In this document: positions 52,990 to 61,312 of the stretch, in pieces
Position numbering within the stretch: the stretch's first letter is position 1
Layout of the letters: each line of letters starts with the position of its first letter
DNA from: Luteitalea sp. TBR-22
Lineage (GTDB): Bacteria; Acidobacteriota; Vicinamibacteria; Vicinamibacterales; Vicinamibacteraceae
Direction: 5' to 3'
Length of the DNA stretch: 64,000 bases
Assembly: GCF_016865485.1 (NCBI RefSeq)
Contig: NZ_AP024452.1
Coordinates: forward strand, 3,060,501 to 3,124,500
Notes under the pieces: generated by a model
Database searches by the model: none
What the model was told of the DNA's origin: nothing
The model's input: the letters and a program-made list of their open reading frames with translations, nothing else
Position numbers and translations under genes: made by a program

Positions 52990-54722
52990 GGGCAGTCCGC
53001 GCCGCGCTGCGGGTGGCCGGCATCGCCGGCATCATCGGTGGCCTGATGGACCCGGGCTGCACCCAGGCCCGGCGCCCCGTGCTCGACGTCGAGGTGATGC
53101 CGGGTGTTCCCGACGCCGATGCGCGGGTCGCGCGGCTGGCTGCCTCCTCGCCCTGGGCGGACGTGCGCCGCGCCGACGAGTCCGGTGCCGTCGGGGGGCG
53201 CCGCGCGTCGGCCCGTGTCGTGCTCGGGGATCCCGCCGCCGTCCTGGCCTCCCTCCGTGACCGCGGCGCCGCGCTGGCGCTGCGCGCCGCTGGCGAGGCC
53301 CTGTCGATCGTGTCCGTGAGAGCCCCCGTGCAGGCCGCCGTTGGCGCGCGGGTGGATGTGACCGCGATGGTCACCGACCTGCCACGACGCCACGGCCGCG
53401 TGCGGGTGCGGCTGCTCGATGGGGCGACCGGCACCGCCGTCGCCGTCGCGGAGTCCGGCGACGCCGACCCGCTGCGCCCGGCGGTCAGCATCGAGGTGCC
53501 GTGGGTGCCGGCGCGTCCAGGGCAAGTCCGACTTCGTGCCGTGGCCGAGTGGATGGGTGACGGCCAGGTCAGGTCATCGTCGCCGGCCGACGTCGACGTG
53601 CACGTGCGGGACATCGCCCTGGCTGTCGACGTCCTCGAGGCCCGGCCGTCATGGGGAGCGCGCTTCGCACGGCTCGCGCTCGACGGGGCGCGGCGGGTGG
53701 ACGTTCGCAACGAGACGCGGGTCGCGCCCGGACTCGTGACCGGGACCGACCTGCAGCCTCGCCCGGCCACCAGCCGCGATGTCGCCGGGATCACCCTGGT
53801 CGGCGGCGTCGATGCGTTGACCACCCGCGACGTCGCCCGGCTGAAGACCGCCGTGCAGGACCGCGGTCACACCGTGGTCCTCATCCTCGACGAGGTGCCG
53901 GGGCCCGGACCGTGGACGAGCCTGTGGCCCCATCCGCTCGGCGCCACCCGGACATCCGGTGCGACGATGGTCGCACGCATCGGCCGACACGCCTGGCACG
54001 TCCGTGAATGGATCGAGCCGCGACCGGCAACGGATGCCCGCCCCCTGGCGTATTTCGACGAAGGCACGCCGGTGCTGTGGGGGCGGCCGATCGGCGCCGG
54101 ACGGGTGGTCATGGTGACCGCCCTCGATGCCTGGCGCTGGCGCGCCGATGAGGACGCCGACTTCGCGGGCGGATGGCGCGCGCTCCTGACGTCGCTGGCG
54201 CTCGACCAGCCATCGCCATTGTCGCTGCGGGCATGGCTGGGGCACTCCGGGGACGGCCAGGTGGTGGGGCTGGCGGTCACGGCCGCACCGGGAGTGGCCG
54301 TCGACGCGGTGGAGGTGACGCCGGTCGAGGCCGTCGAGGGATGGCCTGCCTCGGTCCCGCTCTGGTCGGGGCGCCCGGGGCAGTGGCGGGGCACGGCCCC
54401 CTGGCCGGCGGACCGACGGATACATCTCGCGGCTCGTGCCCGGCGGGGCGGGCGAGTGGTGGCCGAGGACGCAGCCGTGATACAGGTAAGCCCACCTGCA
54501 CTGGTCGCCGGCTGGCCCGACGTGGTGCGCCATCAGGCGGAATCGGGTGCCCTGGCGGCCGGCGAGGCGGAGGCGCCGCGCGCCCTTTCGGCGTTGCGGG
54601 CCGCGCTGGACGCACCGGCGGGTGAGCGGCGGTACGTGACGCGGACCTGGTGGTACGCGGCGATCGTCATCACCGCCCTCGGCCTCGAGTGGATCCTGCG
54701 CCGCCTGCAGCGCGAGCGCTAA
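52986..54722 (+). CDS. Membrane protein with glutamine-amidotransferase-like region (BatA-locus type)
   Basis: 578 residues. A weak N-terminal signal (ALRVAGIAGIIGGLMDPGC), a beta-rich part, then a flavodoxin/class-I-amidotransferase-like segment (AGITLVGGVDALTTRDVARLKTAVQDRGHTVVLIL; GRVVMVTALDAWRWRAD) as in large BatA-locus membrane proteins, and a C-terminal helix (WWYAAIVITALGLEWILRRL). No amidotransferase catalytic Cys is apparent. GTG 52986 overlaps the DUF4175 stop. It ends 17 bp before the first tldD. Confidence 0.7.
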   Translation: MRAVRAALRVAGIAGIIGGLMDPGCTQARRPVLDVEVMPGVPDADARVARLAASSPWADVRRADESGAVGGRRASARVVLGDPAAVLASLRDRGAALALRAAGEALSIVSVRAPVQAAVGARVDVTAMVTDLPRRHGRVRVRLLDGATGTAVAVAESGDADPLRPAVSIEVPWVPARPGQVRLRAVAEWMGDGQVRSSSPADVDVHVRDIALAVDVLEARPSWGARFARLALDGARRVDVRNETRVAPGLVTGTDLQPRPATSRDVAGITLVGGVDALTTRDVARLKTAVQDRGHTVVLILDEVPGPGPWTSLWPHPLGATRTSGATMVARIGRHAWHVREWIEPRPATDARPLAYFDEGTPVLWGRPIGAGRVVMVTALDAWRWRADEDADFAGGWRALLTSLALDQPSPLSLRAWLGHSGDGQVVGLAVTAAPGVAVDAVEVTPVEAVEGWPASVPLWSGRPGQWRGTAPWPADRRIHLAARARRGGRVVAEDAAVIQVSPPALVAGWPDVVRHQAESGALAAGEAEAPRALSALRAALDAPAGERRYVTRTWWYAAIVITALGLEWILRRLQRER

Positions 54723-54739
54723 GGCAGACGCGAAACGAC

Positions 54740-56347
54740 ATGCCGCAGAATCGACGAGACTTCCTCAAGACCGCCGGCGTCGCCGGCGCGGCGCTCACCC
54801 TGTCGGACCTCTGGCTGGCCCCCGCCTCGGCCCAATCACCACGGGCACGGTCGGGCCCCTGGCGCACGTGGGGCACCGACGCGCTGAAGCAGGCCAGGGC
54901 GCTGGGCTGCACCTACGCCGACATCCGGTTCGGACGAAAGCGTTCGCAGGCGCTGAACGTCCGGAACGGGCAACTGACCAGCGCCGGCGGGTTCAGCTTC
55001 GGCGGCTTCGGCGCGACGCCGGGGGGCGGCGTGTCCGACACGTACGGGTTCGGTGTGCGGGTGATCCACTCCGGCGTGTGGGGCTTTGCCAGCAGCCCGA
55101 TCGTCGCGCCGGACGAGATCCGCCGCGTGGTGCAGCAGGCCACCGACATCGCCAGGGCGAGCGCGATGGCCAAGCGGTTCGACGTGAAGCTGGCGCCCGT
55201 GCCGGCCTACGACGAGTTCTACGAGACGCCACACGAGCGCGACCCGTTCGAGGTGCCGCTCGAGGAGAAGCTGGCGATCCTCACCGAGGCGACCAGCGAG
55301 ATCCAGAAGAACAAGCAGATCCTGTTCGCCACCGCGCAGGTGAGCTTCTCGCACGACTGGAAGTTCCTGGTCACCAGCGAGGGCTCGTTCATCGAGCAGA
55401 GCCTCTACTACTGCTCGTGCGGCACGTCGGCCACAGCGCGCACCAAGGGCCAGGTCAAGACGCGTATCTACACGCCGGGCGCGTCGACCGCGGGATACGA
55501 GTTCCTCGTGAAGGCGGACCTGAAGGGCAATGCGGAGCGTGTCGCGGCCGAGGCCGTCGAGCACAGCATGGCGGCGCCCGTGTCGGCCGGCCTCAAGGAT
55601 CTCGTGCTCAAGCCGTCGCACCTCGCGCTGACGATCCACGAGATCATCGCCCACCCCACCGAGCTCGACCGCATCGTCGGCTACGAGGCCAACTACGCCG
55701 GCACGAGCTTCGTGAAGCTGTCGGACCTCAAGAAGCTGAAGTACGGCAGCCCCCTGCTCAACGTCTACGCCGACCGCACGCACGTCGGCGGGTGCGGCAC
55801 GGTGGGCTTCGATGACGACGGCGTGAAGGCGCAGCGGTGGCCGATCATCCAGGACGGCATCCTGGTGGGGCTGCAGACCAACCGCGAGACCGCGCACTAC
55901 ATGGGCGAGACCGAGAGCCGGGGCTGCACGTTCGCCAATCACTGGCGCAACTACCCGTTCCTGCGCATGCCCAACATCCAGATGCAGCCGGGCAAGCCCG
56001 GCTCGCCGACGCTCGAGCAGATGATCGCCGACGTGAAGGACGGCGTGCTCGTCGAGGGCTCGGGCAGCTTCAGCATCGACCAGCAGCGCTACAACGGGCA
56101 GTTCGGCGGCAACGCCTTCTGGGAGATCAAGAACGGCAAGGTCACCCGGATGGTGACCGACTTCACCTACAACGCGATCACCACGGACTTCTGGGCGAAC
56201 CTCGACGCCGTGGGACCGCCCGAGAGCTGGGAGCACCACGGCATGGACGGCGACGCGAAGGGGCAGCCGGTGCAGTCCAACTACCCGTCGCACGGCTCGT
56301 CGCCCTGCCTGATCCGCAAGGTCATGGTCGGCGCGGCCTTCTCGTAA
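54740..56347 (+). CDS. TldD-family metalloprotease with Tat signal (copy 1)
   Basis: 535 residues. Tat signal MPQNRRDFLKTAGVAGAALTL ends near ASA-Q. The TldD fold shows TYADIRFGRKRSQALNVRNGQL, the zinc motif HEIIAH (H300, E301, H305) and C396 in ESRGCTFA, equivalent to the third ligand of E. coli TldD; IDQQRYNGQFGG follows. TldD/TldE cleave peptides such as microcin B17 or CcdA. The second glycine of the usual HExxGH is alanine here. It begins 17 bp after the MoxR-locus chain and is paired with a pmbA-like gene and a second tldD downstream. Confidence 0.92.
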   Translation: MPQNRRDFLKTAGVAGAALTLSDLWLAPASAQSPRARSGPWRTWGTDALKQARALGCTYADIRFGRKRSQALNVRNGQLTSAGGFSFGGFGATPGGGVSDTYGFGVRVIHSGVWGFASSPIVAPDEIRRVVQQATDIARASAMAKRFDVKLAPVPAYDEFYETPHERDPFEVPLEEKLAILTEATSEIQKNKQILFATAQVSFSHDWKFLVTSEGSFIEQSLYYCSCGTSATARTKGQVKTRIYTPGASTAGYEFLVKADLKGNAERVAAEAVEHSMAAPVSAGLKDLVLKPSHLALTIHEIIAHPTELDRIVGYEANYAGTSFVKLSDLKKLKYGSPLLNVYADRTHVGGCGTVGFDDDGVKAQRWPIIQDGILVGLQTNRETAHYMGETESRGCTFANHWRNYPFLRMPNIQMQPGKPGSPTLEQMIADVKDGVLVEGSGSFSIDQQRYNGQFGGNAFWEIKNGKVTRMVTDFTYNAITTDFWANLDAVGPPESWEHHGMDGDAKGQPVQSNYPSHGSSPCLIRKVMVGAAFS

Positions 56348-56378
56348 CGACACTCGACGGACTTCGTTCATTCGGCCG

Positions 56379-56453
56379 TCGGCCTTCGTCGTTGCGGCCG
56401 GCCATGAGCGGCGTCGGGCGACTTCGAAGGTGCGTGATCTTCACGAAGGCCGA
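56379..56453. repeat. Inverted repeat between tldD and pmbA
   Basis: TCGGCCTTCGT (56379-56389) and ACGAAGGCCGA (56443-56453) are perfect reverse complements. The flanking sequence (TTCATTCGGCC; GAAGGCCGAGGGCCC) resembles the 'GGAAGGCCGAATGA' stretch near 10780, so this is probably a dispersed intergenic repeat family. It separates the two genes by 143 bp, unlike the tight spacing elsewhere in this run. Confidence 0.5.
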
Positions 56454-56490
56454 AGGCCGAGGGCCCCAGGCCGTGTTCTCGAGGGATGAG

Positions 56491-57846
56491 ATGAGTTATT
56501 CGCGCGAAGAAGTGAAGGCGATCACCGACAAGATCCTGAACATGGCCAAGGCCGACGCGGTCGAGGTCGATTTCCAGGGTGGGGAGCGGTCGGCGACGCG
56601 GTACGCCAATTCCAGCATCACGGCGAACCTGATCGAGCACGACCAGCAGGTGAACATCACGGTCTACTACGGGCAGAAGAGCGCCAGTACCGTGACGCAC
56701 CAGTTCGACGATGCCTCGCTGAAGACGGCGATCGAGGAAGCGCAGGCGCTGGCCAGGCGCAAGCCGGACAACCCGGAGACGATGCCGCTGGTCAAGCCGC
56801 CGCAGAACTACGTGCCCGTCGAGGCCGTGATCGACCGCACCGCCAACTTCGGGCCGGCCGAGCGCGCCGCGATGGTGAAGAAGAGCCTCGACATCTGCGA
56901 GAAGAAGGGCGTGGTCGGCGCCGGCTACATCCCGAAGCTGCACTGGACGCAGGCGACCGCAAACAGCGAGGGCCTCTTCTCGTACTTCCGCTACGCCGAG
57001 GCGAGCCTCATCCTGACCTGCCGCACGCCCGACGGGACGGGCTCCGGCTGGGCGGGGCAGACAGGGCTGAAGGACGTGAGCCAGATCGATCCGGTGGCGA
57101 TCACCGAGCGGGCCGCCGACAAGGCGCTGAAGTCGCAGAAGCCGCGCGCCATCGAGCCCGGTGACTACACGGTGATCCTCGAGCCGCGGCCGGCGGCCCG
57201 GTTCCTGTCGCTGCTGCTGACGTCGATGGACGCGCGTTCGGCCGAGGAAGGCCGCAGCTTCATGAGCGGCAAGGAACGCGGGCAGACCAAGGTCGGCGAG
57301 AAGCTGTTCGGCGACAACGTCACCATCAAGTCGGTGATCAACCACCCGGTGCTGCGGCAGTCGCCGATCGGCGAGGACGGCCTCGCCGCGCAGGACGTCA
57401 CCTGGGTCGAGAAGGGCGTCGTCAAGAACCTGTACTACAGCCGGTACTGGGCGCAGAAGACCGGCAAGCAGCCGACCGCGACGCAGCCGGGGCTGAGCCT
57501 GGTGATGGATGGCGGCACCACGTCCGTCGAGGAGATGATCAAGACGACCAAGCGCGGGCTGCTCGTCTCGTTCTTCTGGTACATGCGCCCGGTGGAGCAG
57601 ATGTCCATCCTCTACACCGGCATGACGCGCGACGGCCTGTTCCTCATCGAGAACGGCGAGATCACCGCGCCGGTCCAGAACTTCCGCTGGAACGAGACGC
57701 CGGTGGTCGGGCTCAACAACATCAGCGCGCTCGGCCCGCCCGAGCCGATGCACACCGGCGAGGCCTACGACCAGCCGGGCACGGCGATGATTCCGGCGAT
57801 GCGCATCGAGGACTTCACGATGACGTCCGTCTCGCCCGCGGTCTGA
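56491..57846 (+). CDS. PmbA/TldE-like partner protein without signal peptide
   Basis: 451 residues of the non-catalytic TldE/PmbA half: no HExxxH; ADAVEVDFQGGERSATRYANSSIT, QQVNITVYYGQKSASTVTHQF and TTSVEEMIKTTKRGLLVSFFWYMRPVEQMSI. ATG 56491 has GAGGG 5 bp upstream and begins SYSREEVKAITDKIL directly with the domain, so no export signal. Both flanking TldD copies do have Tat signals; if the complex is periplasmic, this subunit would need to be carried across with a partner. Confidence 0.9.
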   Translation: MSYSREEVKAITDKILNMAKADAVEVDFQGGERSATRYANSSITANLIEHDQQVNITVYYGQKSASTVTHQFDDASLKTAIEEAQALARRKPDNPETMPLVKPPQNYVPVEAVIDRTANFGPAERAAMVKKSLDICEKKGVVGAGYIPKLHWTQATANSEGLFSYFRYAEASLILTCRTPDGTGSGWAGQTGLKDVSQIDPVAITERAADKALKSQKPRAIEPGDYTVILEPRPAARFLSLLLTSMDARSAEEGRSFMSGKERGQTKVGEKLFGDNVTIKSVINHPVLRQSPIGEDGLAAQDVTWVEKGVVKNLYYSRYWAQKTGKQPTATQPGLSLVMDGGTTSVEEMIKTTKRGLLVSFFWYMRPVEQMSILYTGMTRDGLFLIENGEITAPVQNFRWNETPVVGLNNISALGPPEPMHTGEAYDQPGTAMIPAMRIEDFTMTSVSPAV

Positions 57847-57854
57847 GGCCAGCC

Positions 57855-59468
57855 ATGTCCAGCAATCGTCGAGAGTTCCTCAAGACCGTGGGCGCCACCT
57901 CGATGGCGCTCGCCTCCAGCGACCTGGTCGCCGCGCTGATCGCGCAGTCGCCCAGGGGCAAGGTGCTGGAGTCGAAGTTCAAGGGCCTGTCCGACGTCGC
58001 GCTCGGCGAAGCCAGGCGCCTCGGCGCCACGTACTGCGACATCCGCTTCACGCGCAACGTCAGCGACTCGGTCACCGTGCGTGATCGCATCGTCGGCGGC
58101 GGCGGGTTCGGTGGCGGCGGCGGTGGCGGCGGATTCGGCGGGGGCGGCGGGCGCAACGAGAGCGCCGGCTTCGGTGTCCGCGTGCTGCACAGCGGCGTGT
58201 GGGGCTTTGCCAGCAGCCCGACCGTCACCGAGGACCAGGTGCGCGCCATCACGCGCCAGGCCGTGGAGGTGGCGCGCGCGAGCGCCGTGGCCAAGCGGTT
58301 CGACGTCAAGCTGACGCCGACGCCGGGCTACCAGACGTACTGGGCCACGCCGATCAAGGTCGATCCGGCGACCGTGTCGCTCGACGACAAGATCGCCTTC
58401 CTGCTCGGCATCAACGAGCAGTTGATGAAGACCAAGGGCGTCATCCGGACGCAGTCGTCGATCGCCCAGGACTACGAGTGGAAGTACTTCGCCTCGAGCG
58501 AGGGCTCCTACATCGAGCAGGAGACGTGGCGCATGGCGCCGAGCTACACGGCGACGGCGCGCGCCGGTGGCAAGGTCAAGACCCGCACCTACACCGTGCA
58601 GGCCCGGACGGGCGGCTACGAGGTGGTGACCGGCGGCGGCATGCTCGAGAACGCCGACCGCATCGCCGCCGAGGCGGTCGAGCACGCGATGGCGCCGTCG
58701 GTGACCGCGGGGCTCAAGGACATCGTGATGACGCCCTCGCACTCGATGCTGACGATCCACGAGATCATCGGCCACCCGACCGAGCTCGATCGCATCCTGG
58801 GCTACGAGGCCAACTACGCGGGCACCAGCTTCATCAAGCTGTCCGACGTCGGCAAGCTGAAGTACGGCAGCAAGCTGTTCAACGTCACCGCCGATCGCAC
58901 CACGCCCGGCGCGCTCTGCACCGTGGGCTACGACGATGACGGCGTGAAGACGCAGTCGTGGCCGATCATCCGCGACGGCATCCTGGTGGGCCTGCAGACC
59001 AACCGCGAGACGGCGCACTTCATGGGCGAGAAGGAGAGCCGCGGGTGCACGTTCGCCACCTCGTGGCGCAACTACCCGTTCCTGCGGATGCCCAACGTGC
59101 ACGTCGAACCCGGCGACGACAAGGCCCCGAGCGCCGAGGAGATCATCGCCGACACCAAGGATGGCCTGCTCATCGACGGGCGCGGCAGCTACTCGATCGA
59201 CCAGCAGCGCTACAACGGGCAGTTCGGCGGCGACGCGTTCTGGGAGATCAAGAACGGCAAGAAGACGCGGATGGTGGCCGACGTGACCTACAACGCCATC
59301 ACGACGGACTTCTACGGCAACCTCGACGCCGTGTCGAACAAGGGCTCGTGGGAGATGCACGGCACCACAGGCGATGCCAAGGGCCAGCCGGTCCAGATCA
59401 ACCACATCTCGCACGGCGCGCCGTACATGCGCGTGCGCAAGATCATGGTGGGCGCGGCCTACCTCTGA
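57855..59468 (+). CDS. TldD-family metalloprotease with Tat signal (copy 2)
   Basis: 537 residues, similar to copy 1 throughout. Tat signal MSSNRREFLKTVGATSMALA; catalytic HEIIGH (H302, E303, H307); cysteine in ESRGCTFA. Between residues 81 and 100 is a Gly-rich insertion (GGGGFGGGGG repeated) not found in copy 1 in this form. It starts 8 bp after the pmbA stop. The order tldD-pmbA-tldD suggests two alternative catalytic subunits sharing one PmbA-like partner. Confidence 0.93.
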   Translation: MSSNRREFLKTVGATSMALASSDLVAALIAQSPRGKVLESKFKGLSDVALGEARRLGATYCDIRFTRNVSDSVTVRDRIVGGGGFGGGGGGGGFGGGGGRNESAGFGVRVLHSGVWGFASSPTVTEDQVRAITRQAVEVARASAVAKRFDVKLTPTPGYQTYWATPIKVDPATVSLDDKIAFLLGINEQLMKTKGVIRTQSSIAQDYEWKYFASSEGSYIEQETWRMAPSYTATARAGGKVKTRTYTVQARTGGYEVVTGGGMLENADRIAAEAVEHAMAPSVTAGLKDIVMTPSHSMLTIHEIIGHPTELDRILGYEANYAGTSFIKLSDVGKLKYGSKLFNVTADRTTPGALCTVGYDDDGVKTQSWPIIRDGILVGLQTNRETAHFMGEKESRGCTFATSWRNYPFLRMPNVHVEPGDDKAPSAEEIIADTKDGLLIDGRGSYSIDQQRYNGQFGGDAFWEIKNGKKTRMVADVTYNAITTDFYGNLDAVSNKGSWEMHGTTGDAKGQPVQINHISHGAPYMRVRKIMVGAAYL

Positions 59469-59491: not shown

Positions 59492-60766
59492 TCAGTCGAG
59501 CGGCTCGGCGACCACCACCCTGTTGCGCCCCTCGGCCTTGGCGCGATACAGCGCCAGGTCGGCGCTGTGCAGGAGCCTGGCGACGTCCGTGACGTTGTCG
59601 CCCCTGGCCACGCCGACGGAGGTGGTGATGGCGATCGTCGCCTCCTTGAAGGGCACCGGCGTGTCCTGGATCACGCGGCGGACCCGCTCGGCCATCGCCA
59701 TGGCCTGGTGTTCCGGGACGTCCCTCAGCAGCACCACGAACTCCTCGCCACCGAGGCGAGCGACAATGTCGCCGCGCCGGAACAGCTGGGCCAACAGCTG
59801 TCCGACGTGACGCAGGACCGCGTCGCCGCCGTCGTGGCCATGGGTGTCGTTGACCCGCTTGAAGAAGTCGATGTCCAGGGCCAGGGCGGTCATCGTCTCG
59901 CCTCGGCCGGCCCGCGCGTCCTCCAGCCAGGGCTCCACGCGGGCGGCCAGGCCGCGGCGGTTGAGTGCCCGCGTGAGGGGGTCGGTGAGTGCCGCATCGA
60001 GCAAGGTCACCTCGCGCCGACGCCGCTCGCTCACGTCCCGCGCCACGATCACGAAGGCGGCCGCCTCACCTGCGTCGTCGACGATGGTCGAGAGGATCGT
60101 GTCGCCCCAGATCGCCCCGCCATCGGCGCACTGGTACTCCGCCTCGAACGAAGCCCAGCCCTGGCGGACGGCGAGTGCGGCCATCGCCGCCAGGTCCACC
60201 GGTTCACTGGAATCGGCGCGCAGCAACTCGGCGCCGGGGCGCCCCACGATCGTCGTCCCGTGGCCGAGCAGGCGCTCGATGGAGCGATTGGACTGCGTGA
60301 TGCGCAGGTCGAGGCCGAGCATGACCACGAAGTACCCCTGCAATGCCTCCAGGAGGACGGCCAGATTCTGCCGCTCCCGCGCCAACTGCCGCTCCTGAAG
60401 GACGCGGCTCGTGACGTCCTCGATCGCGACCATGCACGAATCGGGGTTCACGATGATGGCCGTCAGCGCCAGATGGCGCACCTGTCCCTGCGGATCGCGG
60501 CGCTCGACCGGCCGTTGCTCGGCCACCAGCCCCGGCTCGCCGAGGTGATCCCTCGACAGGTCGGCCAGTGCCGGGTCGAGCGCCTGCAGGATGGCCCAAC
60601 CCTGGTCGGCGCGCGAGGGCAGGCCCAGTGCCACCAGCAGCGCGACCGCGCGCGGGTTCATCAGGTCGATCTCGCCCGCGCCGCTCATGCGCCATACGGC
60701 GACGGGGAGCTGGTACAGGAACTGGAGCAGCGACTCCTGATCGCCGGACGCGGATTCGTGACTCAC
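59492..60766 (-). CDS. PAS-PAS-GGDEF diguanylate cyclase
   Basis: 424 residues. Two PAS-like domains (about 12-125 and 140-250, the second ending in the PAC-type FVIVARDVSERRRRE), then a GGDEF domain. The active site is intact: DPLTRALNRRG, DIDFFKRVNDTHGHDGGD and signature GGEEF. The inhibitory I-site RRGD stands five residues before it, so product inhibition by c-di-GMP is expected. It lies 4 bp downstream of the PYP-like gene on the same strand; the pair most likely forms a sensory operon controlling c-di-GMP. Confidence 0.94.
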   Translation of the reverse strand: MSHESASGDQESLLQFLYQLPVAVWRMSGAGEIDLMNPRAVALLVALGLPSRADQGWAILQALDPALADLSRDHLGEPGLVAEQRPVERRDPQGQVRHLALTAIIVNPDSCMVAIEDVTSRVLQERQLARERQNLAVLLEALQGYFVVMLGLDLRITQSNRSIERLLGHGTTIVGRPGAELLRADSSEPVDLAAMAALAVRQGWASFEAEYQCADGGAIWGDTILSTIVDDAGEAAAFVIVARDVSERRRREVTLLDAALTDPLTRALNRRGLAARVEPWLEDARAGRGETMTALALDIDFFKRVNDTHGHDGGDAVLRHVGQLLAQLFRRGDIVARLGGEEFVVLLRDVPEHQAMAMAERVRRVIQDTPVPFKEATIAITTSVGVARGDNVTDVARLLHSADLALYRAKAEGRNRVVVAEPLD

Positions 60767-60770
60767 GAGG

Positions 60771-61127
60771 TCAGCGCTTGACCAGCAAGTACATGTAAGG
60801 GGAGGCGGCCGATCGCAGCAGGCGCAGCGTGACCGGCGAGGGCTTCATGCGCAGCGTGAACACATAGTCGAGGGTCGCGTCCAGTTCCGGCTCGCTCAGG
60901 AAGCGCTCGGCGATCAGGTAGTTGTTCGTGCATGGCGCAACGTCGCTGAAGAAGTTGCGTGCCAGCACGCGCTCCCTGGACAGTCCGGCCATGCGCGACT
61001 CGCACGCATTGTAGGCCTCGACGTCGCCGCCCTCGCGCATGCGGATGACGCCGAAATCCAGCGTATCGAGTTCCTCCGCCGACAGGGCGTCAAGTTGGGC
61101 CAACACACTCGGGTCATCGAAGTTCAT
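60771..61127 (-). CDS. Photoactive-yellow-protein-like PAS protein
   Basis: 118 residues, one PAS domain that aligns without gaps over its first 70 residues to Halorhodospira PYP (offset of three). Y39, E43 and C66 equal PYP Y42, E46 and C69, the two residues hydrogen-bonding the p-coumaroyl group and the cysteine that binds it. RNFFSDVAPCT matches KNFFKDVAPCT, and the C-terminal YLLVKR matches WVFVKR. T50 and R52 of PYP are A47 and L49 here. The biosynthetic enzymes (tyrosine ammonia lyase, 4-coumarate CoA ligase) are not in the window, so light sensing is likely but unproven. Directly upstream of the cyclase. Confidence 0.85.
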   Translation of the reverse strand: MNFDDPSVLAQLDALSAEELDTLDFGVIRMREGGDVEAYNACESRMAGLSRERVLARNFFSDVAPCTNNYLIAERFLSEPELDATLDYVFTLRMKPSPVTLRLLRSAASPYMYLLVKR

Positions 61128-61312
61128 CGCGCTCGATTCTCGTCTGCCGCGTCGGTCGCGGCGTCCGCCCAGTTTACAACTGATGAGTCTGCAATAGAGC
61201 CAGCCGCACCGGCGTGACCGCAGCCTCGGTCACGCGGGCGCGCCACGCGTCCGGCCGTGGCGGCATGGGGCGCGCTCGCGCCATCAACGCTCGGTTCCAC
61301 CGGCGCCGGCGC

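Follow-up and report, generated by a model that had tools for sequence, protein, structure and literature searches.

A candidate PAS receiver for single-domain PYPs, with interchangeable outputs, at a PYP-cyclase locus of Luteitalea

The PYP signal chain has been called an important gap (PMC12826048), and for the single-domain PYP of H. halophila one account describes the signalling partner as unidentified (PMC13250908). The closest described systems are the PYPs of clade C, in which a separate PYP lies beside GGDEF/EAL genes (Xing, Gumerov and Zhulin 2022, PMC9664959), and the 29 predicted pyp operons with GGDEF (Dohmen 2025, PMC12826048). Both match the locus described here in having a single-domain PYP followed by a separate GGDEF protein, and the novelty that a sequence-only reading of this DNA had seen in that arrangement is forestalled by these two papers. 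Other systems share parts of the design. According to the main text of PMC9664959, the clade A PYP of Idiomarina loihiensis also adjoins a GGDEF gene and has been proposed to place c-di-GMP under blue-light control, but it belongs to a different clade from ours. The Ppr and Ppd proteins, fusions of PYP and phytochrome with a kinase or with GGDEF/EAL domains, likewise use PYP as input to a kinase or c-di-GMP output, although they do so in one chain with a phytochrome, whereas here there are two proteins, a PAS receiver and no phytochrome. CetA/CetB of Campylobacter resembles our locus in that a soluble PAS sensor signals to a separate output protein; as the same main text presents them, however, these are an FAD redox sensor and a chemoreceptor, and no likeness in sequence is claimed. 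The main texts of PMC9664959 and PMC12826048 give PYP partners by output domain and mention no common front-end domain. As far as those texts show, the receiver domain proposed below is undescribed, and it is the new point of this work.

The window, the 64,000-nucleotide stretch of Luteitalea sp. TBR-22 DNA analysed here, carries the pair on its minus strand. A single-domain PYP-like protein of 118 aa with an ATG start (60771..61127) is followed, after a 4-bp gap between its stop and the cyclase start (60767..60770, TGA CCTC GTG), by a 424-aa diguanylate cyclase of PAS-PAS-GGDEF architecture with a GTG start (59492..60766). The sequence-only reading had described just these elements, and the PYP-like protein, the spacing and the intact cyclase were all borne out. 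The 185-bp gap upstream (61128..61312, minus strand) is the presumed promoter region; a scan of it found no match to the sigma-70 consensus, and a terminator scan found none. At 69% G+C, against 71% for the window, the pair shows no sign of foreign origin in its base composition. Three consecutive genes of the PmbA/TldD metallopeptidase family (window 54650-59468, plus strand), the first with a Tat signal, converge on the cyclase gene.

The 118-aa protein is a true member of the PYP family, judged by sequence match and modelled fold. A search against PYP family models, which the sequence-only reading had suggested, gave photo_yellow (TIGR02373) as the sole NCBIfam match at E 5.4e-22, although the score of 78 bits falls below the equivalog cut-off of 143 bits. 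Reportedly, only about 20% of known PYPs are detected by that model (PMC9664959), and because it misses most published members we do not regard the shortfall as family-defining. The best solved relative is the PYP of Ppr (1mzu, E 5e-18). An AlphaFold model of the protein (pLDDT 93.6) superimposes on the PYP crystal structures 1gsv/2phy with a TM-score of 0.91, and in the structure comparison PDB matches 1-39 were all PYP entries, with the next PAS folds at TM ~0.6. The pocket residues are retained as well. Alignment places Tyr39 (codon 61011..61013), Glu43 (60999..61001) and Cys66 (60930..60932, all on the minus strand) at PYP Tyr42, Glu46 and Cys69, the last being the site of chromophore attachment, just as had been claimed; these three positions are invariant across a 15-row PYP alignment. 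Cys66 lies in the motif VAPCTNN. The window residues A47 and L49, which align with T50 and R52 of PYP, had been read as a hint of a different photocycle, but A50 and L52 are the consensus among 984 PYPs (PMC12826048) and the hint falls away. In common with clade C, the window PYP keeps Met100, has lost Trp119 and Phe92 (here Tyr119 and Leu92), and has GGDEF adjacent and chromophore genes missing nearby, as they often are in that clade. At the same time, clade C has lost conservation of Phe96, whereas the window PYP keeps Phe96 together with Thr70 (the CTNN type). In a tree built without clade C reference sequences it groups, with support of 100/98, with Burkholderiales PYPs of the paired type, while lying outside the Burkholderiales and plasmid subclade.

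The cyclase is, from its sequence, an intact predicted diguanylate cyclase. Its GGDEF catalytic domain (59519..59992, minus strand, as are all the cyclase features; Pfam E 5e-43) contains a GGEEF motif at residues 339-343 (59738-59752) and an I-site, RRGD, at residues 330-333 (59768-59779). Of its two PAS domains, Pfam recognises the second, an ordinary one (60017..60340, PAS_4/PAS_9), and misses the first (60374..60757), which is the proposed receiver. A Pfam search with the first ~128 cyclase residues matched no family, and a PDB sequence search with this partner PAS gave weak matches only, the best at E 0.03. Its predicted structure (pLDDT 92.7) is a PAS fold with flanking helices, laid out as an N-terminal helix, the PAS core and a C-terminal signal helix.

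What identifies this domain is its recurrence. When neighbour genes were compared at PYP-relative loci drawn from many phyla, the neighbours of the close PYP relatives were found to start with a common domain of ~128 residues (LLQFLY..PVG..., alignment A2), while the parts downstream of it differed; the window copy scores 82.6 bits against the A2 profile built without it. The attached output is PAS-GGDEF in the window and at L011-L014, L016, L018 and L019, GGDEF-EAL in the tandem second gene of Burkholderiales, a HATPase histidine kinase at L020-L022 and L026, and a SpoIIE phosphatase at L017 joined to L066 through an exact contig overlap of 121 bases; in Nocardioides a standalone receiver domain adjoins a response-regulator frame. 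The PYPs paired in this way form one clade on the PYP tree (support 100/98, 30/31 rows), nearly all of them retain Tyr42, Glu46 and Cys69, and the NN of VAPCTNN is a mark of this clade and of its nearest unpaired relatives. We think it quite likely that the partner PAS represents an undescribed family, a physical plug-in receiver through which single-domain PYPs would address outputs as different as cyclases, phosphodiesterases, kinases and phosphatases, with a subset, the window included, that does without the usual chromophore enzymes. One apparent receiver without a PYP, in genome G066, was rejected, its contig and the PYP contig overlapping by 121 identical bases, so that the two are neighbours.

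Overall, we favour a two-protein light sensor running from PYP through the partner PAS to GGDEF and c-di-GMP, a reading as a whole to which we give a probability of roughly 0.6. Tyr39 and Glu43 would hold a p-coumaroyl chromophore linked to Cys66 as a thioester; its isomerisation by blue light would alter the PYP surface; and the altered PYP would bind or release the first PAS of the co-transcribed cyclase. As a dedicated PYP receiver, that domain could then relay the signal by way of its C-terminal helix and the cyclase's other PAS, switching GGDEF activity and with it the level of c-di-GMP, while in relatives the same receiver would drive GGDEF-EAL, histidine kinase or SpoIIE phosphatase modules. 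Homology establishes just the two ends of this chain. We infer direct contact between PYP and receiver from their near-exclusive pairing and from the swapping of outputs, and the same holds for the direction in which the switch works and, in the window organism, for the loading of pigment and the dependence on light. If true, the receiver proposal answers what soluble PYP signals to in the paired clade; it supplies a concrete, testable candidate partner for single-domain PYP, a much-studied model photoreceptor, and PYP and receiver together could be a ready-made two-part optogenetic module.

A p-coumarate ligase adjoins the PYP at 11 paired loci, those scanned scoring 294-343 bits, and on an Indioceanicola profundi plasmid (L136:1477-6622) a canonical pyp, pcl, an ammonia-lyase, the PYP-like gene and a receiver-GGDEF gene follow one another on one strand. 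In the ammonia-lyase the residue pair is His-Leu, as is typical of tyrosine lyases. This adjacency in relatives makes it very probable that the paired PYPs are a family of photoreceptors that use p-coumarate. The window organism itself is another matter. Its complete genome holds no PYP-type coumarate ligase, the best TIGR02372 match standing at 49.6 bits against the 294-343 bits that calibrate the search, and no tyrosine ammonia-lyase, HutH being the only lyase. The candidates considered were rejected: the best TIGR02372 match is an acetate-CoA ligase and another is of fatty-acid type, and the PF00221 match is HutH, with an SH motif and a score above the PRK09367 cut-off. The sequence-only reading had counted a lack of chromophore pathway genes anywhere in the genome against itself, and neither gene is there; we nonetheless do not take their absence as a refutation, because most PYPs lack such genes nearby and uptake of p-coumarate is possible.

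The strongest alternative keeps the same sensor and receiver and removes the light: Cys66 and its pocket would serve another ligand, an acyl thioester or a redox signal, that is passed on to the cyclase. The missing ligase and lyase speak for it, as does the absence of the ligase from most other CTNN-type paired-PYP genomes across several phyla (the exception, L014 of Eremiobacterota, scores 302 bits), though several of the ligase-less genomes are draft MAGs. Against it, Tyr42, Glu46 and Cys69 persist in the ligase-less genomes, a sign that the chemistry of the pocket has stayed the same. The window genome also has generic CoA ligases, and others have suggested that p-coumarate is taken up (PMC12826048). 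We regard this alternative as possible but doubtful. The window organism may scavenge p-coumarate and load it with a general or other CoA ligase, or the ligand may have changed to a non-light one, and light sensing there is putative; the absence of chromophore genes in many members would force a test of whether these PYPs obtain p-coumarate at all and, if so, by what route. Residue 70 (Thr versus Met/Leu) tracks ligase adjacency, and it tracks phylogeny too. On the Indioceanicola plasmid two PYP types share a single chromophore operon. In Bacteriovoracales a 227-aa gene after the PYP, which by eye had the look of a ligase fragment, had no NCBIfam match and was dropped.

The light-sensor reading and the non-light alternative share one sensor and receiver. 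The A2 profile, although scored against as many as 67 candidates in a genome, matches once, beside the PYP, in the window genome and in most of its relatives. Among 399 Burkholderiales genomes there are 23 receiver matches above 70 bits, confined to 11 genomes, and these are exactly the 11 of 399 with PYP matches above 100 bits; nine of them did not contribute to the profile (G067 and G075 did). All of these matches adjoin a PYP bar one copy (G075 C41), and the other receiver scores, among the top candidates scored, are at most 31 bits. A search of 72,556 plasmids with one receiver sequence as query matched 11 records, every one of which (11/11) carries a paired-clade PYP, and in 10 of the 11 a spacing of about 18-50 bp separates the PYP match from the receiver match, both on one strand; on the Caballeronia M1242 plasmid the best receiver match falls on the second gene of a tandem receiver pair. 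No strong receiver match beyond genomes already known was found among 332 genomes from the class of an alphaproteobacterial member or among 346 from the phylum of an actinobacterial member, these large searches being of top candidates per genome and the genomes being phylogenetically non-independent. Away from any PYP the strongest match reaches 45 bits, the one exception being the G075 copy with no recognised PYP, which scores 80 bits; matches of 45 bits or less without a nearby PYP were set aside as ordinary PAS domains. In the opposite direction, a Comamonadaceae plasmid has a paired-clade PYP without a nearby receiver gene.

Ligand binding is common among PAS domains, and this one has neither a known family nor a close solved relative; it might therefore sense a small molecule of its own, with PYP as a modulator or parallel input and the pairing reflecting co-regulation rather than direct contact. 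This seems to us unlikely, since one receiver that is joined to several unrelated outputs and is hardly ever seen except next to a single PYP clade is what a dedicated partner would lead one to expect, whereas co-regulation has no need of receiver exclusivity and output swapping. That PYP and cyclase are chance neighbours without a functional link is highly improbable, for although adjacent bacterial genes are often unrelated and the PYP gene, for which 59 other relatives of the window organism were negative (0/59), has little local history, the order and close spacing recur in several phyla as well as on plasmids that are independent of one another, and the whole-genome and plasmid searches contradict chance. 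The functional pairing first proposed from the 4-bp gap has support well beyond that gap, in the recurrent pairing of PYP and receiver.

On the PYP tree the paired and unpaired labels require 2 changes, versus 17 when shuffled, and PYPs of other types, including those from other genomes of the window's phylum, fall outside the paired clade. PYP and receiver distances are correlated (r 0.68, 0/5000 permutations; r 0.71, p 6e-4 in a diverse subset), a result that co-evolution could produce, as could mere co-inheritance, and that may in part reflect common descent or transfer of both genes together. The window receiver has a very long branch (2.81, versus 0.40 for the window PYP), and its interface may consequently be altered. 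With its receiver so unusually diverged, the window pair is a poorer choice for experiments than those of Indioceanicola, Sphingomonas insulae and the Methylobacterium FF17 plasmid, in which the ligase is adjacent. The suggestion that such a switch would be unusual in its phylum stands in part: some PYP is carried by 20 of 396 genomes, but in that sample the paired type occurs in the window genome only, a distribution that, with the gene's absence from the 59 relatives, fits acquisition by transfer.

Several features of individual genomes are worth recording. Within the window's phylum, one genome (G551) has two PYPs, and at L112, L114, L124, L127 and L130 the PYP matches lie in long open frames of 373-629 aa, possibly encoding multi-domain proteins. 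There are signs of system decay (L026:6001-6386, L067, L068, L108): in the betaproteobacterial genome G075 one PYP is frameshifted beside an intact receiver-kinase, a second receiver copy has an internal stop and a third is without a recognised PYP, and the receiver genes of G467 are likewise broken. Public records repeatedly label the paired-clade PYPs among the plasmid matches 'phosphonate transporter'. In a Myxococcales MAG (L024:5758-6360), finally, an excisionase/BldC-type DNA-binding domain is fused ahead of a PYP with Tyr, Glu and Cys intact, a possible one-protein light-responsive regulator.
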